Positions 12,960 through 61,869 of a stretch of DNA of 64,000 nucleotides are shown one piece after another; positions within the stretch are counted from its first letter, which is position 1; each line of letters begins with the position of its first letter. Under the pieces are notes generated by a model that was given only the letters and a program-made list of their open reading frames with translations, was not told the origin of the DNA and did not search any database. Both the position numbers and the translations under genes were made by a program. This DNA is from Sinohyriopsis cumingii (lineage: Eukaryota > Mollusca > Bivalvia > Unionida > Unionidae): the NCBI GenBank assembly GCA_028554795.2, contig CM068839.1, positions 89,128,182 through 89,192,181 on the forward strand. Reading direction: 5' to 3'.

Positions 12960-14130
12960 TAAACTAAAGAAATTTTATTCTTTTGGAAAACTGAAGTGTT
13001 TTGGAGATCGGCATTCAGGGGCCACAACTCTTGGAAATGACACGAGATGCTGAAAATCAACTCTTCTAAAGATTTCATCAATACAAAGGTTCATGACAAC
13101 AGTGGCTGAAATTGCAATATTCCTTAGTCTAACTGTACTGTGAAAAGCAAAGTTAGAAGGACTAGCAATCAGGGGAAACAACTATTCTAAATGTTTATGC
13201 AGAACACTTAAAATTAAACTCATTCAAGTCTTTGTCAGTATAATGCAGCACTTCAAATCTGACTGCAAAGGAATAAAGCTTATTATGCTTATAAGCTGGA
13301 AACTGATTAAGATAAAAGGGTATTAAAAAAAGGTCCAAGCTCCTGCGAATGACATCATGGAATGCTGGAAATGAAACTCACTCAAATCAGATTTGAAATC
13401 AAATGAATTCTGATGAAGTTATCTTGAAGAAACCAAAGTAGGGAGGAAAGGCAATCAGGGGCCACAACTCCGAGGAACAAAACAAGACTAAATTCTTAAA
13501 GATGTATGCAAGTCTATGAGTCAATCCTCAAAACAAATTGCATCAAAATATTTTCCCTTGTTTGTGAGCTATGCCAGTTATGAGCAACATCTTATGTAAA
13601 GTTATAAGGTAAACTGTCATGGGCCATAACTCTAGTCCAGGAGTCAAAACTAATAAAACATACATTTAGGTCTTAACACAATGTACACATCAAAATGAAT
13701 CCAAATATGCTGACTGCTTCCTAGACTATGCCAGTTACAAGGAATGGTTATGGTAGATATGTAACATGGATGAAGAATGGCAATTACTTCATCAAAATTG
13801 ACCCTGAAAAATGGAACCTTAAAAAAAAACGTCCAATGTAATAGGCAACTCACCTACTGAATGGTTTCCAATTATGTGCATGTGGTTCAGAGTTATGCTG
13901 GTCACTAGCAACATCCTATGTGGAGATGTCAAGTTAACTGTCAAGGGTCATAACTCATTTCAAAACACAGCTGTTGAGACAAATTCCACAAATGCACATT
14001 CAGCGCAACAAAACAATTTGATTACCAAACTGCTCAACGGTTTCAGTCATGGAGATGCAATACTAATGAAAAATGGTCAATAATTCCATTCAAATGGGAC
14101 CTTAAAAGACAAAACCACAAGAAGTGTGAA
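12960..14130. repeat. Satellite-like repeat with 'ggggccataactc' motif
   Basis: The phrase caggggccacaactc, gggccataactc or gggtcataactc recurs near 13,015, 13,168, 13,453, 13,620 and 13,944, at multiples of about 140-165 bases. Between copies the sequence is similar (gctgaaaat..actc, catcaatacaaag). Diverged further blocks lie at 41,620-41,885, 42,590-42,650 and 43,800-44,045. I recall this phrase as frequent in bivalve genomic DNA, but that is memory, not a search. Confidence 0.65.
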
Positions 14131-34190: not shown

Positions 34191-34750
34191 GTATGAAATT
34201 TATAAAGACACCATTTATTAACCTTTGGATTTACTATTTCAAAAAATTTACCGAGTTCTGGGAACATTTCAAGTCATGTTTCAACAAATTCTAGGACAAG
34301 GACAAATTCAAGGGCTTTCCAAGGATAAAACCAACTTTTTCAAAATTCAATGATTTTTCAAAATTGTACAAACTACAATGATGCATACACATACTAAGTT
34401 TTATCCCTTAATCTCAAAGTGTCTTGTAAGTAAGGAGGAAAGTAAAGTGATGGAAAAGGCAAAATTAGTGACCAATAGCCTTGATGTTGAAGAAAACACA
34501 CCCAATGTGGTGAGTGACACACTTTTAAATGATGATGAATAAATAAGCCAAATTTAATTCCTTCGTCTCGAATGGTTTTAAAGTTTTGGAGCTGAAGGGA
34601 AAGTGTGATGGACAAACAGAAGGACACTGGATACAATGTCCCTTGCTTTTATTCAAAATGGTGGAGGACAAAAGTTATTGATATCAAATGAGAACAATCT
34701 TTTAAAATGTTTTAGTTAAGAAGGACTCATTGGAATAAGGTACACTGCCC

Positions 34751-35943
34751 AAGAACAGTTATAAAATGATGTAATTTTCTGTTTTATGCTGGCTTTGCCC
34801 ATGAACAGTTATATAATGATGTAACTTTCTGTTTTATGCTGGCTTGGCCCAAGAACAGTTATATAATGATGTAACTTTCTGTTTCATGCTGGCTTGGCCC
34901 ATGAACAGTATACAATGATGTAACTTTCTGTTTTATGCTGGCTTTGCCCAAGAACAGTTATATAATGATGTAACTTTCTGTTTCATGCTGGCTTGGCCCA
35001 TCAACAGTTATATAATGATGTAACTTTCTGTTTCATGCTGGCTTGGCCCATCAACAGTTATATAATGATGTAACTTTCTGTTTTATGCTGGCTTTGCCCA
35101 AGAACAGTTATATAATGATGTAACTTTCTGTTTCATGCTGGCTTGGCCCATCAACAGTTATATAATGATGTAACTTTCTGTTTCATGCTGGCTTGGCCCA
35201 TCAACAGTTATATAATGATGTAACTTTCTGTTTCATGCTGGCTTGGCCCATCAACAGTTATATAATGATGTAACTTTCTGTTTCATGCTGGCTTGGCCCA
35301 TCAACAGTTATATAATGATGTAATTTTCTGTTTTATGCTGGCTTTGCCCATGAACAGTTATATAATGATGTAACTTTCTGTTTTATGCTGGCTTGGCCCA
35401 TCAACAGTTATATAATGATGTAACTTTCTGTTTCATGCTGGCTTGGCCCATGAACAGTATACAATGATGTAACTTTCTGTTTTATGCTGGCTTTGCCCAA
35501 GAACAGTCATATAATGATGTAACTTTCTGTTTCATGCTGGCTTGGCCCATCAACAGTTATATAATGATGTAACTTTCTGTTTTATGCTGGCTTGGCCCAT
35601 CAACAGTTATATAATGATGTAACTTTCTGTTTTATGCTGGCTTGGCCCATCAACAGTTATATAATGATGTAACTTTCTGTTTCATGCTGGCTTTGCCCAT
35701 GAACAGTTATACAATGATGTAACTTTCTGTTTTATGCTGGCCTTGTCCATGAACAATTACATAATGATGTAACTTTCTGTTTTATGCTGGCTTTGCCCAA
35801 GAATAGTTATATAATGATGTAACTTTCTGTTTTATGCTGGCTTGGCCCATCAACATTTACAAAATGAGGTAGCTTTTTGTTTTATGCTGGCCTTGTCCAT
35901 GAACAATTACATAATGATGTAGCTTTCTGTTTTATCCTGGCAA
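34751..35943 (+). repeat. Minisatellite, 50-bp unit, about 24 copies
   Basis: Unit aagaacagttatataatgat followed by gtaactttctgttttatgct and ggcttggccc. Copies differ at a handful of sites (aag/atg/atc at the start, ttttat/tttcat, ctttg/cttgg) in a mosaic pattern, suggesting repeated unequal exchange. Largest array in the window; in the F-G intron of the kinase gene. Confidence 0.96.
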
Positions 35944-36009: not shown

Positions 36010-36795
36010 CTCAGCAAGTAGGAGTGCCATAAAATGTCTCACCATTCTGTGATTCAGCCATGGCATAGTCTTTACATTCACTATAGAGCAATCAAATCAT
36101 AGTGCCATATAACATCTCATCATTCTGTCATTTAGCCATGGCATTGTCTTTACATTCACTGTACAAGAATCAAATCTGAGTGATATATAACATCTCAGCA
36201 TTCTGTCATTTAACCATGGCATGGTCTTTTTATTCACTATAAAGCAATCAAGTCATAGTGCCATACAACATCTCAGCATTCTGTCATTTAGCCATGGCAT
36301 GGTTTTTACATTCACTGTACAAGAATCAAGTCTGAGTGTCATACAACATCTCAGCATTCTGTCATTTAGCCATGGCATGGTCTTTACATTCACTGTACAA
36401 GAATCAAATCTGAGTGATATATAACATCTCAGCATTCTGTCATTTAACCATGGCATGGTCTTTTTATTCACTATAAAGCAATCAAGTCATAGTGCCATAC
36501 AACATCTCAGCATTCTGTCATTTAGCCATGGCATGGTTTTTACATTCACTGTACAAAAATCAAGTCAGAGTGCCATACAACATCTCAGCATTCTGTCATT
36601 TAGCCATGGCATGGTTTTTACATTCACTGTACAAGAATCAAGTCTGAGTGTCATATACCATCTCAGCATTTAACCATGGCATGTTCTTGACATTCAGCAT
36701 AAAAGAATCAAGTCTAAGTGTCATATACCATCTCAGCATTTAGCCATGGCATGGTCTTGACATTCACTGTAAAAGAATCAAGTCTTAGGATCTTA
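36010..36795 (+). repeat. Minisatellite, 78-bp unit, about 10 copies, next to exon F
   Basis: Unit catctcagcattctgtcatt, tagccatggcatggttttta, cattcactgtacaagaatca, agtctgagtgtcatacaa. 78 is a multiple of three, so long frames run on both strands; they are not genes. On the gene's strand the array starts about 10-15 bases after the exon F donor. Confidence 0.95.
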
Positions 36796-42639: not shown

Positions 42640-43780
42640 GTGATGCTGGAAATACAAATCATTTTAAGGTCTTATCAATAAACTGGAAATACAAGTCATT
42701 TTAAGGTCTAATCAATACTAAGCTGAAAATGTAAGTCATTTTAAGGTCTTATCAATAAACTGGAAATACAAGTCATTTTAAGGTCTTATCAATAACCTGG
42801 AAATACAAGTCATTTTAAGGTCTTATCAATACTAAACTGGAAATGTAAGTCATTTTAAGGTCTTATCAATAAACTGGAAATACAAGTCATTTTAAGGTCT
42901 TATCAATAAACTGGAAATACAAGTCATTTTAAGGTCTTATCAATAAACTGGAAATACAAGTCATTTTAGGGTCTTAACAATACTAATTTGGAAATATAAG
43001 TCATTTTAAGGTCTTATCAATACTAAACTGGAAATACAAGTCATTTTAGGGTCTTATCAATACTAATTTGGAAATATAAGTCATTTTAAGGTCTTATCAA
43101 TACTAAACTGGAAATACAAGTCATTTTAGGGTCTTATCAATACTAATTTGGAAATATAAGTCATTTTAAGGTCTTAGCAATACTAAACTGGAAATACAAG
43201 TCATTTTAAGGTCTTATCAATACTAAACTCGAAATACAAGTCATTTTAAGGTCTTATCAATAAACTGGAAATGAAAGTCATTTTAAGGTCTTATCAATAC
43301 TAAACTGGAAATACAAGTCATTTTAAGGTCTTATCAATACTAATTTGGAAATATAAGTCATTTTAAGGTCTTAGCAATACTAAACTGGAAATACAAGTCA
43401 TTTTAAGGTCTTATCAATACTAAACTTGAAGGGGCCCCGAGTGGCCGAGTGGTCTAAAGCGCTCTCCGTTACAGATCACTGCCATCTCACCTCTGTCTGC
43501 GTGGGTTCGAGTCTCGGATTCAGCCTATGTGGGTATGTGAGAAAGCTTGCCAGTAGCTTCTCGTGGGTCGGTGGTTCTTTCTGGGGTTTTCCCGGGTTCT
43601 TCCTCCACCATTAATACTGGCCGCCATGTATAGCCTATCGTGTGCTGAAAAATGGCGTTAAACCCTAAAATAACAACAATAACTAAACTTGAAATACAAG
43701 TCATTTTAAGGTCTTATCAATACTAAGCTGGAAATGTAAGTCATTTTAAGGTCTTAGCAATACTAAGCTGCATGCAAAAT
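42640..43780 (+). repeat. Minisatellite, about 37-40-bp unit, about 20 copies, split by a SINE
   Basis: Unit aaactggaaatacaagtcat followed by tttaaggtcttatcaatact; some copies lack 'tact'. The array resumes at 43,682 after the SINE. Confidence 0.95.
43431..43681 (+). mobile_element. SINE family B, full length, with target-site duplication
   Basis: tRNA-like head ggggccccgagtggccgagt and ggtctaaagcgc (A-box region), B box gggttcgagtctcgg, body with ttcccgggttcttcctccac, tail taaaccctaaaataacaaca. actaaacttgaa flanks both sides (43,419-43,430 and 43,682-43,693), a probable 12-bp target-site duplication. The family resembles a Ser/Leu-type tRNA fold with a long variable region, but it is not a functional tRNA gene. 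Confidence 0.92.
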
Positions 43781-53810: not shown

Positions 53811-56350
53811 TTTATTTTACAAATTTCTCTTATTATTTTTATTTAAAAAATTTCCATTCTATGTTTGTTTTGCATTCTTAATCCATACCCTACAAAACAA
53901 TATCATGTAAATGACACATGGTTCCCATGCTTTTCTAAAGATAAATTTCCAGGTCATTTCCAGGATGAAATTAATTTTTTCAAGATTCTCATATGACCAT
54001 TACTGAATGGAAATAAAGAACATTTTAGATTATAAAACATGCATTTTCTAAATCTAAAGATGGTTCCCTTTCAAGACTCTCCAAAACATCTAAGCCAGAA
54101 AAGATGATCATGTAGAAAACCACAAAATGTATCACACAAAACAAATTTGATTATAATCCTTTAAAAACTTTATTTTGCTGACCTACATTATGTTGCTAAG
54201 TGGGAACAACATAATGAACATACAATACTTTTATTTCCTTTCAAGCCTTTAATTCTAAAGAATTCTATAGCATTTTATAGAAAGTAAACATTTCCTATCA
54301 CAGTTTAAAAAAACAATAATCGCAAATAATTAGAATACTGTCTTGTAACAAAGAGAGTTTAACCCTGAATTTATCTGTGCCAATAAAATACCAAGCAAGA
54401 GTTTTCAAACAAACCTAATCTCCTTAAGAAGATCTGGTTAAAAATCCATCTTTTAAAAAACATTTTCAAAAGGGTTGATTTAAATTTTGACAAAAAACCT
54501 TCAAAATTATATACTGTTGGATAAACAAGGACTGAATTTTCTGTAAAATCAGCTTGTCTTCTTGTAATTTGTTAAACCAGTCCCCAAACCTGCATTGATA
54601 CTGGGGCTCAAATCATTTTTTAACATATAATACAAAGGATGACAATTTCTAATTTCAGCTCTGAGATTCAACAATTTGGACTACAAATTTGGATTAAAAT
54701 GAATAGCAGTCCATTGTCTAATCTGGGTTTCCTACGAATGTTCCCACCCCATTTTTCATATTTGGACATTTAGGTTGGGGTGTGGGGTCATTGCAAATTG
54801 AAAATTAGGAACTTGCTGCCACCGTGCAGTAGTTGCAATGGAAATCAGGACTACCAGGTTACATTTCATCAACTCTGATTTTAATACTCACAACTTCTGA
54901 GAAAATAAGTAATTTTCATATCCATTTCATACGTGTATCACTCGATCTAACAATGTTTTAACTCTGCTAGGCCATCCGGTAAGCGGCTATACTTTGCAAA
55001 CACGATGTTTGCCTCTTGTGATGCTAGAGGGGTTTTCAAAGCTTCCACATAAGGAAAGATATGGATATCTAGCTGACTTTGCAAATAAAAGTCTACAGGA
55101 TGAATCTAATCCACTGAGCGTTTGGATTGACTCAGCATATATGTTTATTGCAAGCACCCAAATGATACATACCGTACCCTCTGATTATTCTGGTTAGAAC
55201 TCGATAAATTTAACTCACGATCAGTTTAGTTACGACTCAGTTATGTGATTGTTTTGGGCGTCAAGTGGTGGTGGTAAAATGTACGGGGTTTTCTGGACTT
55301 TTATAAATATTTGCGAAATTCCAGGACTTTTCACAGTTGGGAATTTTTTTAATCATTTCTCCAGACTTTTTTCCAATAGCATGGGAACCCTGATGGCATC
55401 ATGTAGGCCATTACATAACCGGCAAAATACAACATTTATGCTTGGGTCTGGAGAATAAGTTCCTTGCTGACAGATGTACACTGGTCTTCCCAGGATTCAA
55501 ACCCATAACCTACTCTTAATAAGTTCAACATGCTAACCAGTGAGGATTCTGATGGACACAGGGGAGTGCTTAGGTCATTTACAAGTCCAATTTCCTGTTT
55601 TATGATACTTTCTAACTTCTTTATAAAGTATTTTGCACAGAAACTGAACAGTTTCTTTGGACCTCAAGTGAACTTTAAAACAAGGTTTCACTATAAATGG
55701 TTTAATTTTTAACAGCTTGACTCAATCAAATGAATAATGGCATCATATTAAACAACTATCTTAATATATGAAAGTCAGATCTATGAATCTGAGCTGGATC
55801 TTTGCATTTAGTGCACGTGTCCAGAATTCAAAATTTATGTTGAAAATTGTCCTAAATTAATCTAGTGAAACTTTTCTATTAAAGGCACTCACTGGATTTC
55901 TTGCAGGCAGGTGTTCTTAATGTACAGGCTGAACTTAAAAGTAAAAGGAAAGAAATCAGAATATGATGTCCTATGTAAGCAGATGTTTTCTCTGGGGAGT
56001 GTCCACTTAGACAAGTTTATTTAAACATTTTTGAAAAGTTGCCAGGGCATGGAAAGTAAGTCCCTAGGACCTACTTTGCCTTTGGTGAGTAGTACTCTCC
56101 AAAATGAATACACCTATCAAGCTTCATGGCTGTAATTATAACAGTCTGAGAAACACTGAGCTAAACAGAAAAACTTAACACAATGACTAGTGCATGAAAA
56201 GTATGTCACTGTAACCTGCTTATGACCTTGGAGTGTGGTACCCATTCAAGATGAACAAACCCATCAAGTTCCATAGATGTACATAAAATGGTGTAATAGA
56301 AACTAAGCTAAATGCAAACACAATGATAATGTCTTTGACAGTGATGACAC
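53000..56350. other. OXSR1 B-C intron, part left of the DIRS element
   Basis: Mostly AT-rich non-coding. Holds a (TA)n, an eroded family C-like SINE at about 55,440-55,560 (complement of aggattcaaacccataacc) and diverged aggtcat-type ~150-bp repeats at 56,040-56,335. Confidence 0.55.
53736..53800. repeat. (TA)n microsatellite
   Basis: About 32 units, ending in cacacatata. Confidence 0.96.
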
Positions 56351-56400
56351 TGTTAGAAAGCAAATTTTTAGTAAATTGTGTTTTTCCCAGAATACTTACC

Positions 56401-56563
56401 CGATCACATCAACGTTAGGTATATAAGCCCGCTACCCCTCGAATCCAGCCCTACTAAAAGATGAAAATTCGTCTTTTCGGTCTATCTCATATAGACCAAA
56501 GGGCAATAACTCTTGCCCCTTACCTCCCCTTGCCACCGCAAGGTGTCACTAGTTTTTTAAGCT
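56401..56563 (-). repeat. DIRS inverted terminal repeat, 3' side
   Basis: Pairs with 61,286-61,447 at over 90 percent identity by eye. Shared phrases: cgaatccagccctactaaaa, gaaaattcgtcttttcggtc, aagggcaataactcttgccc. It carries a short palindrome (gacgaaaattcgtc type). The outer 41 bases (56,360-56,400) are not shared with the other ITR but are copied, reversed, in the internal complementary region. Confidence 0.95.
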
Positions 56564-56625
56564 GAGCGATATATATTATACGAGGATGCTCGCATAGCGG
56601 GGTGGTTGGGAGGGTTTTTAAGTGA

Positions 56626-56715
56626 TGTGAGCGGGTAAGTATTCTTGGAAAAACACAATTTACTAAAAATTTGCTTTCTCCTTCAAATACGTTCCCCGAT
56701 CACATTAACGTTAGG
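56626..56715 (-). repeat. DIRS internal complementary region (ICR)
   Basis: Two adjoining blocks. 56,634-56,674 (gggtaagtattcttggaaaa...) is the reverse complement of the element's left end from 56,360. 56,678-56,715 (ctccttcaaatacgttcccc...) is the reverse complement of its right end down from 61,466. They meet at TTT 56,675-56,677. In DIRS elements this region templates restoration of the terminal sequences and brings the ends together during circle formation. Confidence 0.93.
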
Positions 56716-56928
56716 AGAATAAGTAATAGGAGGAGGGAATGCTGAGCATCCTACCTCTACCCCCGGTACCTTCTAGGGAATGATGGCTCCTAATTTCATC
56801 AGCAACACAGCCTAGGGTCACGTGATATATGACCCCTATATACGGTTAAGAAGATTGTTATTGAAATCTTCTTACCTACGAAATTTCACTGGCGAATCCA
56901 GCGAAGCTGATAGGCCGTGCTGATTGTT

Positions 56929-58010
56929 TTAAATGGGTCTGGTGGTCATCTGGGCTGCCGACACCGGACCTACCAGATTCAAGGTTTGCCTCTGAGAAGC
57001 CAAATCTCTGAGATAAAAACTGGAGAAGGTTGACTCTGCATGCCAGCCAACAGCTTCTATTATATCTCGGATCGAAACATTGCGTTTGAATGCCAGGCTC
57101 GCCGAGATTGCTCTAATCTCATGAGCCATAATCTTCATGAGGCGACTCTGATCTTGTGAGACCTCAGAGTACGTTGAGCGTATAACCCACTTCAGCCATG
57201 AAGCAAGGGCTTGAGGGGTGATATCCCGTTTACCAGCTTTGACCGGAAGAAAGAGGCGCTTACGTGTGTCCCGACATGCCTCTGTGCGTTTTAAATAGTG
57301 CTTGAGTGCACGAACAGTATCTTGCATGGCTGCTGCTCCTGACTTATCTATGGAAGAGAGCGAGCAAATGACGATTCTTTGATTGCCAATGGATGGTAAC
57401 CTATTTTTTGGCTACAAAGCCTGGTTGCGTCAGGAGGACCACCGAACCATCTGATCTGAACTGAAGAAAGTTCGGGTCACTGGAAAGGGCATGTAACTCA
57501 GTCACCCTGCATGCTGAAGCTAAGGCTATCAAGAAACATGTTTTGTATGATAGTAGCTTTAATGAAGTGTGGGCTAAAGATTCAAATTTGTCTGAATTGA
57601 GCCATGTTAAAACCCAGGGCAGATTCCATTTTGGAAACAGGGTGAGGGATTTTGGTCGATTGAAATCAAAATTGGATAAAAGATCTGATAGATCTTTGTT
57701 ATGCCCAATATCACATCTACCATGATGGCGGAATGTGTCTGATATCATGGAGCAGTAGCCTTTGATAGTAATTGGGGCCAACTGTTTCTCCTCGAAAAGC
57801 CAGAGAAAAAAAGTCGGCCAGTTGAGGGATTGAGACACTCAAAGGGACGATGTTATTGATATGGCACCAGTCCCTGAAAACACGCCACTTTCCCTCGTAA
57901 GCCTTCAGAGTGGAGGGCCTTCTTGCTCTTGAGATTCTCTCCACAATCGAAGGTTTAAACTGTTTGTCTCGCAAGGCTGCCCAGACAAGGGCCAAGCATG
58001 AAGAAGAAGA
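56929..58010 (-). pseudogene. DIRS tyrosine recombinase, two frameshifts
   Basis: Integrates the circular DNA intermediate in DIRS elements. Three frames in order. (1) To about 57,812: VERISRARRPSTLKAYEGKW, the core-binding domain. (2) About 57,812-57,409: PITIKGYCSMISDTFRHHGR, then LIALASACRVTELHAL with the first catalytic Arg. (3) About 57,404-56,929: LMKIMAHEIRAISASLAF with the HxxR box, then VGWHAESTFSSFYLRDL with the His/Trp position and the Tyr nucleophile. The frame changes at an A7 run (57,806-57,812, plus strand) and at a T6 run (57,404-57,409). All catalytic positions are kept; only the frame is lost. Confidence 0.9.
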
Positions 58011-58342
58011 CAGTCTGGGCAGGGGTGGAACACCTGTGACCGCGGTTGTTTGAGAAGATTTGGGCTGGTTGGAATCTTCCTGGGTAGATCTATCGCTAGA
58101 TTGAGTAGATCGGTGACCCAGGACTTGTTCCATCTGAGAGGGGCAATCAGAATCATCCGACAGTTCTGACCCATTAACCTCTGGATTATTTTCGGTACCA
58201 AAACCGTGGGAGGGTAGGCGAATGCCCACAACCCCTCCCAGCTGATTGACAGAGTGTTCATGGCCCAAGCCTCTGGGTCTGGAACCGGAGAGACGAAGGT
58301 GGGCAACTTGTGATTCCACCTTGTCACAGAAAGATCGATCAT
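57905..58342 (-). pseudogene. DIRS region after RNase H
   Basis: VTRWNHKLPTFVSPVPDPEA, then ISWEGLWAFAYPPTVLVPKI and PLRWNKSWVTDLLNLAIDLP: the conserved segment after the RNase H core (FVSP.PDP.A...D.....W.....YAFPP..L...). It sits in its own frame because of the deletion. Its 3' part overlaps the recombinase start in another frame, as is usual for DIRS elements. Confidence 0.85.
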
Positions 58343-58821
58343 CGGACACCCCCAAAGTGTGCAAATCCAAAGGGTAGGACCTGGAACTGATAAATTATGT
58401 CGCGGTAAGTGAATCGGAGAAATTTCCGTGGCGCGGGGTGGATAGGAACGTGAAAATACGCGTCGGTCATATCTAGACTGACGGCATACTCGTCCCGCCG
58501 GATGGAAAGACAGATTGATCTCGCCGTTTCCATCTTGAATTTCGGTGGTAAAATGTATTGGTTGAGGCGACTCAGGTCGATGATCGGCCTCAACTTGCTG
58601 TTTGCCTTCTGGATAAGAAACAGCCTGGAATAAAACCCTGGCAATTGCAGTTTTTTCACAATCTCCACCGCCCGTTTTTCTATGAGCGACTGTATCTCCT
58701 GTTGTAGAAAGGTATCCTTCTCCCGATCTGTCGGTACGTCCGTGAAGAGGGGAGAGGAGGACAGGGGAGGGGTTGGATAAATGAAATCCGAAGTCCCTCT
58801 GAAATGACCTGGATCACCCAA
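58339..58821 (-). pseudogene. DIRS reverse transcriptase, truncated before YxDD
   Basis: True RT sequence from about 58,785: PPLSSSPLFTDVP, then LIEKRAVEIV, SRLFLIQKANSKLRPIIDLS (fingers), AVSLDMTDAYFHVPIHP (the first catalytic Asp region, SLDM.DAYFHV) and FQVLPFGFA. After LPFGFA the sequence jumps to unrelated RNase H-side sequence (HFGGVR, stop). The Y.DD motif, thumb and the first half of RNase H are missing through an internal deletion with its join at about 58,355. The protein cannot be active. Confidence 0.92.
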
Positions 58822-60557
58822 TTGTTCTGAGGAAAAAAAGTGGTCCAGTGGTCCTGAAATTGCAGGAGGCGGCCGCCCACAGGTAGGCTCTCCGTGGGTG
58901 GTGGAGAGGGTATGTCAATTTTTAGAGTTAGGAGGCTTGAAGACGGAGAAACTTTGTTTCTTACCACCTCTGTTTGGTTGCCTCCTAGCTTGACTAGACT
59001 GTTGTCTTTTGGCATTGGGTTGGGATCTATACTGCATATTTGATTGTAAGGCTCCCTTGTCCCTGGTTCGCCAATCATCCCTCCGCTGTGGCAGGGGCTG
59101 ATTTTTTCTAAATGCCTGCGAGGGTTGGGCGCGAGTTGGAGGAGCAGTTCCTGAGCTGCCTGCTTCCGAACTTCTTCAATTTTTCCTCCAAAGAGTAAAG
59201 GCGACCCAAACTGAGTCATCTGTAAAGCCAGAGTATGATGGGGCTTCAGTGACATGAACCGCAGACATGCATCCCGTCGTACCAGGTCTAAGTTGGCAGA
59301 AGCAGTCAACGCATTAGCCATGGAATGGTGAGCTGCCCTGTTAATAACTCTAGCAATCCGGTACGTCGCTTCCCAAGCGTGGTCATTGTTGGATTTTTCT
59401 GCGAGTCGGAAAATGGCTAATGAAGCCAAGTCTAACATTGAAGACGTAGCGACTACGTTCCGGACTAGCTTTGACGTGGCATGGAACACACTTTTGTCCA
59501 CTTTGTAAAACAGTGGAGCGGACATGTGAACTGCTGCCATATTTTTGTCCAGGGCCGGAAGATCCGTACTGAAGGCGTCTGAATGAGTTTTGTACCAGTG
59601 ACACGAGAACGTCGCTGGTACTTGGCTTTCTGAAAAGAACGCCTTAGCATTCCCCAGATCACCTATTCGTCCTGATAGACGATCACTGATCTCCTTAATT
59701 TTTGCCAACTGGGGAAGGAGCCGGAAGGACGGCGTCTCTTCCTCCCCATCAAGATCTACAGATGCCTTAACTTTGTAGTCTTGAGTGGCGGTAGGAGGTG
59801 GAGGGCGTTCTGAAGTTGCCAACACCCTATAAATTTCTTCCACTGCCACCTTGAAGCCAAACTCAGTCCGTTCCATGGTTGGATCTGTGTACGGCTGATT
59901 TGCAGGAGTTTCGTCACCCTCACTTTGTGCCGAGTCGTGTTCTGTAATAGCTTGCATTTCTGGATAGAGCATACCAGGTGGCATAGATGACGCGATTCCG
60001 TCATCATTAACACTGTCACTAACTCTCCCTTGTGGATAAGCCATGAACATATGGACGGCCGGCCCTGCCGGCTGGTTTGTCTGGCTTGTGGTCGGTCTGA
60101 ATGCTGGCGACGGTCCTGCTATCACCGGTACCGGCTGCTCCAATGGCCTGGCTGGACGGACAGATTTCTCACTAAAATCTCCGCCATAGTAATGGTATGT
60201 TGCCAGCGGTACAGCTTGATGGACGGATTTATCACTAAAATCCCCATAAGTCATGTTTGGTCGGACCGTTTTAGCAATAGGGTCCCCATGCTGGGACAGT
60301 TGGACGGCCGGTGACGTAGAGGTTGTATAAAGATATGGATCCGATGGATCTGGAAAAAAAAACATGCGTCCTGACTTACAGGCCCAAAGGCCATGCTCGG
60401 ACATGCGGGGGGACTTACGCCCACTGGGCAGCCTAAAATTGGGGGAACATTCCCCCAAAGAGTCAGAAAAAGCTGTGGAAGCGAGCGAGGGAAATAAGGG
60501 TAATATCTGGCCTGATGTCAATAGCTGCGTCGTTGTTTCCTGGACCAAATGACGCAT
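58680..60557 (-). pseudogene. DIRS gag-like ORF1, main part, running into RT start
   Basis: 625 codons in the same frame as the zinc-finger part, separated only by the TAG. Residues 1-290 are low-complexity, Pro/Ser rich. Residues about 300-480 are a helical, conserved-looking gag core (KIKEISDRLSGRIGDLGNAK, MAAVHMSAPLFYKVDKSV, FGGKIEEVRKQAAQELL). Residues about 560-590 read VGGRLLQFQDHW...NNWVIQVISEGL, the conserved opening of DIRS reverse transcriptase (GGRL..F...W....WV...I..G). The true RT reading leaves this frame near 58,780; the last 30 codons are therefore out-of-frame noise. Confidence 0.85.
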
Positions 60558-60923
60558 CTATTCAAAGTTGGACTGTTGTACCCTGTCAACATTATTTTCC
60601 TCCATTGCCGCTGATGTTACTGTGGCTGAAGGTTGCAAACGACGAACTTTAGGTGAAGGGGGGACCCCAACGTCCCCCACAAGGCTCGCAATAGAGGCTG
60701 TTTTCGGATGTATACTGAGGACATCAATGCTATCTTTCTTCATCTTATTCCGTCTATCCCTTCCTTTTGCTGCCTTCTGGACTACATCAGCCCATGTTTG
60801 CTCTGTCCAAGTATTACACACGCTGCATGGTACAGATGATGTACACTTGGCACATACAATACAAGAGTCATGGTTGTCTTCTTTTGCTTTGAACTTTTTG
60901 CATTTCATGCATTTGGTTGACAT
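60558..60923 (-). pseudogene. DIRS gag-like ORF1, N-terminal zinc-finger part
   Basis: From the ATG at 60,923-60,921 (MSTKCMKCKKFKAKE...) the protein has Cys pairs CMKC, CIVCAKC, CSVC and a W-rich end WTEQTWADVV within the first 50 residues, a zinc-binding start often seen on DIRS ORF1. A basic stretch (KGRDRRNKMKKD) follows. I chose this ATG over the one at 61,097 because a strong splice-acceptor-like tract (cttgtgttgtttcag) ends five bases before it and cysteine patterning begins right after. The frame ends at TAG (60,560-60,558), directly followed in the same frame by ATG. Confidence 0.8.
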
Positions 60924-60960
60924 TTCTACTGAAACAACACAAGAAAAGAAAACAAAGCAC
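60924..60960 (-). promoter_or_regulatory. Consensus 3' splice site ahead of DIRS ORF1
   Basis: On the minus strand a tract of about 28 mostly pyrimidine bases, ending cttgtgttgtttcag, has its AG at 60,930-60,929, five bases before the presumed ORF1 ATG. Either the element splices its own 5' leader, or the host transcript, which runs in the same direction, could use it. Only the sequence is seen. Confidence 0.5.
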
Positions 60961-61285
60961 AAATTAGCAATTCTGCATGTTATTACTTCGCTAATACCAC
61001 AACCGTTACTAACGGAGTAAGCGAAATTAGTCAGTGTTGTGTTAACTCTTAACTGACAAAACGAGTTCCGCGATAGCGTGTGTAACATGGTCTTCAATAA
61101 ACGAAATCCGTAAGGGTGACAAAGTCACTCAATTTTGAAAAAAATTGTTAAAATAATGTATACAACCTGTAGAAGAATGATTGTCCAATGCAATAAATCC
61201 AAATTTAACTTCGGATGGTCCAATTTAACGCTAAGATGGCTTGGATTGTTTGCAGGTATAATGTATGTGTTATCCGTACAAGCGA

Positions 61286-61447
61286 AGCTTAAAAACTAGT
61301 GACACCTGGCGGTGGCAAGGGGAGGTAAGGGGCAAGAGTTATTGCCCTTTGGTCAATATGAGATAGACCGAAAAGACGAATTTTCGTCTTTTAGTAGGGC
61401 TGGATTCGAGAGGTAGCAGGCTTATATCCCTAACATTAATGTGATCG
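61286..61447 (-). repeat. DIRS inverted terminal repeat, 5' side
   Basis: Partner of 56,401-56,563; outer extension 61,448-61,469 unique to this end and stored in the ICR. It should contain the element's promoter, since transcription runs leftward from here, but no TATA-like box stands out. Confidence 0.93.
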
Positions 61448-61530
61448 GGGAATGTATTTGAAGGAGAAAAGTGATCCCTGTGTCTTTTCTGTGCTTCATA
61501 GGCGAGAGAAAATTATGTAACATATCTCAC

Positions 61531-61632
61531 CTTCATAGGTGGATACTTGTGGTATGGAGCAGTCCCAGTGGCAAGTTCTATGGCAGTTATTCCCAGGCTC
61601 CAGATATCAGCCTTGTAGTCATATCCTGTCAC
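61531..61632 (-). CDS. OXSR1: OXSR1 exon B: kinase subdomain IX
   Basis: 34 codons, phase 0 at both ends: [11 protein letters not shown], then [12 protein letters not shown] and PYHKYPPMK. The ADIWS(L/F)GITAIELA block is diagnostic for Ste20/GCK-VI kinases. Acceptor tttccaag; donor GTGAGA. The low-coordinate end lies only 62 bases from the right end of the DIRS element, so the insertion is immediately downstream of this exon's splice donor. Confidence 0.96.
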
Positions 61633-61869
61633 CTTGGAAAGAAAAACAAAACAATGAGAAATTAACAAGTGTTCTATGGAACTCAGACTTTCACATGCAA
61701 CCATATGCTAAACTTGCAAACACTTTAACACTAAACTTTAATTCAGATGCAGTCTGAAAAGTGGTACTTATGTCTCAATGAAATTAAAATCAAGATCTAC
61801 TTTTGATACATAGATATAACAGGTACCAATCTGAGGTCCTGTTCCATTCACCTTTTGACTGATGAATAC

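Follow-up and report, generated by a model that had tools for sequence, protein, structure and literature searches.

A stretch of 64,000 nucleotides from the genome of the bivalve Sinohyriopsis cumingii (contig CM068839.1, positions 89,128,182 to 89,192,181; henceforth the window) carries at 56357-61469 an old copy, decayed and partly deleted, of a DIRS1-like tyrosine-recombinase retrotransposon, in which the internal complementary region (ICR) appears to preserve the junction of a circular integration intermediate. The boundaries of this copy and of its relatives, together with empty paralogues of its insertion site, are best explained by recombination between an AAA at the circle junction and an AAA in the genome, with a base preference that extends beyond this triplet into the flanks. 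This explanation as a whole, inclusive of the identity of the element, is one in which we place high confidence as a single joint judgement. The evidence comes from the window copy and 39 other copies in the 2.9-Gb genome, these being the best 40 of 4044 candidates by similarity to the left end of the window copy. The right end is in hand for 20 of the 40 (the window copy and 19 others), while the right end of one further copy, L019, was read separately. The 19 other two-ended copies are 3.1-6.1 kb long, with 14 of them within 5.98-6.13 kb, and the tree of copies is star-like, with a mean pairwise divergence of 4.8% over a 1.6-kb stretch and the window copy as one of its branches.

The ICR pairs with both ends of the element. 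In the window copy the left end (56357-56400) is complementary to ICR positions 56634-56677 at 43 of 44 positions, with a mismatch at 56388/56646, and the right end (61429-61469) is complementary to 56675-56715 at 39 of 41, with mismatches at 61453/56691 and 61435/56709; the ICR thus pairs with the ends at 79 of 82 positions, and its two halves overlap on a single TTT. The initial annotation of the window had placed the element, the ICR, the TTT and the two AAA boundaries at coordinates that are confirmed on the sequence. Its further description of the ICR as the exact head-to-tail join of the inverted ends is right as to the join at TTT, but has to be relaxed from "exact" by the three mismatches. 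When the majority letters of the family are considered instead, the left end agrees with the ICR at 55 of 55 positions (40 copies), and the right end does so throughout the first 41 of 49, the right ends of 20 copies being compared here with the ICRs of 40. The length of these matches and their recurrence across the 40 copies exclude a chance origin.

The same triplet recurs at the boundaries throughout the family. TTT occupies the junction of the ICR in all 40 copies; the left boundary reads AAA in 38 of 40, with ATA in the remaining two (L019 and L032), and the right boundary reads AAA in 19 of 20, with AAT in one (L038). The element letters adjoining these triplets are invariant, being GC at every one of the 40 left ends and AG at every one of the 20 right ends. 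Past the AAA, the flanks of the 20 two-ended copies agree with the opposite end of the element over 0-4 letters on the left, where a preference for AG contributes, and over 0-1 letters on the right, and a duplication longer than AAA is not needed by these boundaries. The initial annotation had proposed that the boundary trinucleotides of other copies be compared with the ICR junction, with no target-site duplication or differing boundary expected, and apart from the three deviating triplets just listed this is what is found. Boundary sequence alone would equally fit a staggered-cut integrase that favours AAA targets and generates a 3-bp target-site duplication, given that such an enzyme, too, would convert one AAA before insertion to one on each side thereafter. 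However, each of the 40 ICRs carries TTT at the place where the two end sequences meet, which indicates that the triplet belongs to the stored circle junction, and the near constancy of the triplet at both boundaries likewise speaks against a duplication. Hence, with the triplet held inside the ICR, plain target-site duplication is rejected as a very improbable account.

The state of the target prior to insertion can be approached via paralogues, as the left flank of the insertion (56207-56356) consists of dispersed repeat sequence for which the genome contains 33 other, diverged matches. A search with the joined window flanks containing a single AAA returned 35 matches, of which six span the join; another 27 end before reaching it, covering just the left flank, and the remaining two are the halves of the insertion itself. 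The six spanning matches, at 69-76% identity, all contain one AAA and read (A/G)G-AAA-AGTRATCC; five are free of gaps at the join, whereas the sixth lacks one base ahead of the AAA. They support the pre-insertion site predicted in the initial annotation, ctgttag-AAA-agtgatccc, and, in combination with the 20 two-ended copies, give no sign of a target-site duplication larger than the junction triplet. Four more paralogue alignments are available for three other copies (L039, L041 and L042). The one for L042, which lies in that copy's own left flank, has 78% identity, is gap-free at the join and contains one AAA, and one of the two for L041, at 14046-14116 within the window itself, also retains a single AAA. 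An additional row in the screen for spanning matches, for L033, proved to be that copy's own right boundary and not an empty site. The window segment 13594-14116 is made up of fragments of repeats akin to the sequence at which L041 is inserted.

These observations can be arranged into the following course of events. The cDNA of the element would close into a circle whose junction, as suggested by the ICR, would read GGAG-AAA-GCAAA in the orientation of the window. Strand exchange, presumably catalyzed by the element's own recombinase, would then take place between the AAA of the circle and a genomic AAA, with the outcome seen in the boundaries and the empty paralogues, namely one AAA per boundary, with nothing else duplicated or lost. 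The ICR would represent the stored circle junction, from which every new copy could have its outer ends restored. Further, the recombinase may favour targets in which the AAA follows a purine, mostly G, and precedes a pyrimidine, mostly T, as the enrichment of these bases described below would indicate.

The proposed restoration of the ends from the ICR leads to the expectation that the two should share changes, and the left end and ICR of the window copy do share two departures from the family majority, at positions 28 and 54 (56384/56650 and 56410/56624). Across the family, with the window copy included, same-base changes common to the ICR and the left end number five as against 1.09 expected from 5000 shuffles (p 0.003), in a setting where, on account of the star-like tree, most changes are private to single copies.

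Several points weigh against the interpretation given thus far. The evidence for templating is thin, as the family-wide excess hinges on the window copy: when it is left out, the common changes on the left number three against 1.02 expected (p 0.067), and the right end shows no excess at all, with two against 1.33 (p 0.39). Additionally, an A-to-T change at ICR position 14 is found in four of the 40 ICRs (L019, L022, L024 and L045) and in none of the left ends of those four copies. The empty sites are paralogues of a repeat and not alleles, and in the four alignments available for other copies the AAA is retained in just two (that of L042 and that of L041 at 14046-14116): the second L041 paralogue, at window positions 13594-13908 (69% identity), has AAG and a one-base gap, and the L039 paralogue (75%) has GGG and is gap-free only over the four letters left of the join, beyond which there is a gap of 17-18 bases. 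The match to a tyrosine recombinase is also weak, with Phage_integrase falling below its cut-off (see below), and the circle and its recombination are reconstructed from genomic sequence as opposed to being observed events. As a separate observation, the four copies with T at ICR position 14 fall into more than one group of the tree, and another copy, L035, has the T at position 14 in its end only.

The assignment of the element to the DIRS1-like group is founded on the combination of inverted terminal repeats, the ICR, a reverse transcriptase piece, a weak recombinase match and a 625-aa open reading frame (ORF), with the coding features all on the minus strand (Table 1); given this orientation the ICR sits near the 3' end of the element. 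The terminal repeats are inverted over 162 bp with 94% complementarity. A reverse transcriptase is present, with the RVT_1 match barely above its cut-off. In the presumed recombinase region, the piece at 56932-57327 gives a Phage_integrase match at E 0.028 and 14.6 bits against a cut-off of 27.1, in what is a broken copy, and a match to DUF6339 that is just as weak (E 0.027), while a Pfam scan of the piece at 57404-57838 returned no match. Neither a methyltransferase nor an RNase H domain was matched in a scan of six ORF pieces, which come from the window copy only, where the pol region lies partly inside a deletion of ~1 kb. The Ngaro and PAT elements are likewise tyrosine recombinase retrotransposons, but in the passages of PMC3266345 and PMC9210276 at hand they are characterized by split direct repeats; the window element has inverted terminal repeats and an ICR instead, and membership in either group is rejected.

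Table 1. Features of the DIRS1-like copy, its insertion site and a related empty site in the window
Feature	Position	Strand	Basis or remarks
DIRS1-like retrotransposon copy	56357..61469 (5113 bp)	coding strand (-)	repeats, ORFs, reverse transcriptase domain, lengths of other copies
Left boundary triplet AAA, in common with circle junction	56357..56359		AAA in 38/40 copies
Outer left terminus, 39 bp	56357..56395		complementary to ICR, beyond inverted terminal repeat
Inverted terminal repeat, left arm	56396..56557		162 bp, 94% complementary to 61291-61452
ICR half complementary to left end	56623..56677		53/55
Circle junction TTT, overlap of ICR halves	56675..56677		TTT in 40/40 copies
ICR half complementary to right end	56675..56723		39 of first 41; 44/49 overall
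Presumed tyrosine recombinase region	56932..57838	(-)	two open pieces (56932-57327, 57404-57838)
Reverse transcriptase piece	58342..58821	(-)	RVT_1 E 4.2e-7, 30.3 bits vs cut-off 29.6
Internal deletion junction, ~1 kb lost in window copy	58367..58372		alignment to other copies; short microhomology
625-aa ORF, presumed gag by position	58683..60557	(-)	ORF; no Pfam match
Inverted terminal repeat, right arm	61291..61452		pairs with 56396-56557
Outer right terminus, 17 bp	61453..61469		complementary to ICR, beyond inverted terminal repeat
Right boundary triplet AAA	61467..61469		AAA in 19/20 copies
Target flank GTTAG	56352..56356		-2/-1 = AG (preferred flank); AG there in 4/6 empty paralogues
Target flank AGTGATCCC	61470..61478		adjoins AAA in empty paralogues as AGTGATCC or AGTAATCC, 6/6
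L041 empty paralogue inside window	14046..14116	(+)	one AAA; one base missing just after; 81% over 72 columns

Inspection of the flanks suggests that the target is R-AAA-Y, as opposed to a bare AAA. Immediately before the left boundary the base is G in 32 of 40 copies and A in the other eight, as compared with 18.9% G before AAA in distal flanks (785 sites), and the base preceding it is A in 26 of 40. On the right, the first flanking base is T in 12 of 20 copies. Genome-wide, 201 right-end matches have AAA and then a letter other than G; in the first 100 of them this letter is T in 62, C in 27 and A in 11, by a hand tally that may include a few ICRs in which a letter has changed. The initial annotation had put the crossover in a 3-base overlap; the single AAA at the boundaries agrees with this, and the flank preference extends the target past a trinucleotide. 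It might be supposed from these data that the exchanged overlap is longer, i.e., AG-AAA, with targets often reading AG-AAA like the circle, as positions -2/-1 of the left flank are AG in 23 of 40 copies, the same letters that adjoin the AAA at the right end of the element. However, the AG of the element is constant at 20 of 20 right ends (a small number on which to base the comparison), even though the target has A at -1 in eight of 40, and no target letters are seen crossing over into the element. On account of this invariance the longer overlap is rejected, and we accord it hardly any probability.

The rare triplets that depart from AAA bear on the place of the exchange within R-AAA-Y. They were counted by a whole-genome pattern search, with ICR rows removed after inspection. 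On the left, position 1 yielded two rows, both of them ICRs (one recognized by end pairing, one by adjoining sequence), and hence no departures; position 2 yielded eight, comprising seven left ends with flanks read (six ATA, one ACA) and one ICR recognized by adjacency; and position 3 yielded two, an ICR (L091) and one unchecked row, i.e., at most one departure. On the right, the three rows at position 1 comprise one ICR and two unchecked rows, i.e., at most two departures; the six at position 2 comprise three right ends (L092, L095 and L096) and three ICRs or ICR-like rows (L093, L094 and one by adjacency); and the 12 at position 3 comprise ten right ends (T in five, C in four, G in one) and two ICRs or ICR-like rows (L090 and L091), the flanks of these right-hand rows at positions 2 and 3 having been read as well. 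With a neutral change rate at A sites of 1.07% (16,389 internal sites), ~1 departure would be expected per position in ~100-115 left ends and 2-2.5 in ~225 right ends. Both totals are estimates, the left one obtained by removing ICR rows by hand and adding ends preceded by GAG (99 without the latter), and the right one by adding a share for G to the non-G right-end matches. The neutral rate is surpassed at left position 2 (p 1e-4) and at right position 3 (p 1.5e-4 to 3e-4), but not at right position 2 (p 0.09-0.12). The right end could be read in five of the seven copies with a left departure, and is AAA in four (L032, L065, L067 and L097, with L065 and L067 read by eye) and AAG in one (L063, which is the right end of L019); for the other two (L068/069 and L072/073) it falls outside the stretch taken. 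As an aside, the left flank of L068 (C3:45156510-45156600), an ATA copy, resembles by eye the interior of another DIRS element, and this copy may be a nested insertion.

By our own derivation, if both strands were exchanged across a 3-base overlap, mismatches should be equally shared between the two sides. An alternative would be exchange at a single point inside the triplet, after its second A and before its third (A2/A3), with target bases 1-2 staying on the left, base 3 staying on the right and no 3-base overlap. Position-2 departures are indeed found mostly on the left (seven versus three) and position-3 departures mostly on the right (ten versus at most one), with a Fisher p of 0.0075 for the interaction of position and side and of 0.011 for position 2, left versus right. 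However, position 3 taken alone does not separate the sides (p 0.18), positions 2 and 3 together account for just 21 departures, including an unchecked one, the totals are the above estimates, and the counting was done after the pattern had been noticed. We regard a point exchange at A2/A3 as possible but unlikely. The crossover in a 3-base overlap put forward in the initial annotation is supported by the AAA boundaries and the empty paralogues, while the overlap itself, as also published, may be too generous, with the mismatches leaning toward the A2/A3 point.

Turning to the surroundings of the element, an exon at 61535-61650 on the minus strand matches OSR1/SPAK-type STE20 kinases (best PDB chain 3dak_A, E 9.8e-16), and the DIRS copy lies in the adjoining apparent intron, ~61 bp from this exon, with the splice site read by eye. 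The window also contains large tandem arrays at 34747-35941, 36015-36784 and 42646-43430, with units of 50, 78 and 40 bp, respectively.

The integration model supported here is one already published for DIRS1-like elements, and the window family is a clean confirmation of it in a further family. As described in the passages of PMC3266345 at hand, DIRS1-like elements share with the window element the inverted terminal repeats, an overlap of the ICRs on a circular junction of 3 bp, termini identical to that junction and integration at an identical genomic 3 bp with no target-site duplication; the statement in the initial annotation that DIRS elements lack such duplications agrees with this account. 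In Table 3 of that paper, which covers 28 elements, the junction triplet is nearly always identical to the termini, and XtDIRS3, with TTT/TTT termini and an AAA junction, is the same in this respect as the window element viewed on its coding strand. The flank preference and the mismatch polarity belong to the window family and were not met in those passages. DIRS-1 of Dictyostelium (Cappello et al. 1985, via PMC5633606 and PMC3266345) has the same type of internal junction sequence complementary to both ends, and circular cDNA has been reported for it (PMC5633606). However, according to the latter source, in the part consulted, DIRS-1 inserts preferentially into DIRS-1 itself with no apparent sequence preference, whereas the flanks of the 40 copies in the window family are mostly unrelated and display a base preference. 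Xenopus DIRS-like families have TTT at both ends and in the ICR, as does the window family, and no analysis of their targets was met in the passages of PMC9210276 at hand. More generally, neither a flank preference nor a boundary polarity of DIRS elements was found in the literature searched, as judged from titles, the beginnings of abstracts and passages, and within that literature these two features are the parts that go beyond the published model.

Together, the empty paralogues and the many boundaries constitute a test of the published integration model within one genome, which supports the model and adds a flank preference to it. The polarity of the rare mismatched triplets would, in addition, separate two-strand exchange over an overlap from point exchange. 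The recombination of integron attC with attI would be alike only if the exchange took place at a single point on one strand, and no relation to it is shown. If true, a point exchange between A2 and A3 would fit one strand being exchanged, or the resolution being one-sided, at R-A-W-H-Y-like targets; genomic boundaries would then allow the mode of integration of DIRS circles to be read.

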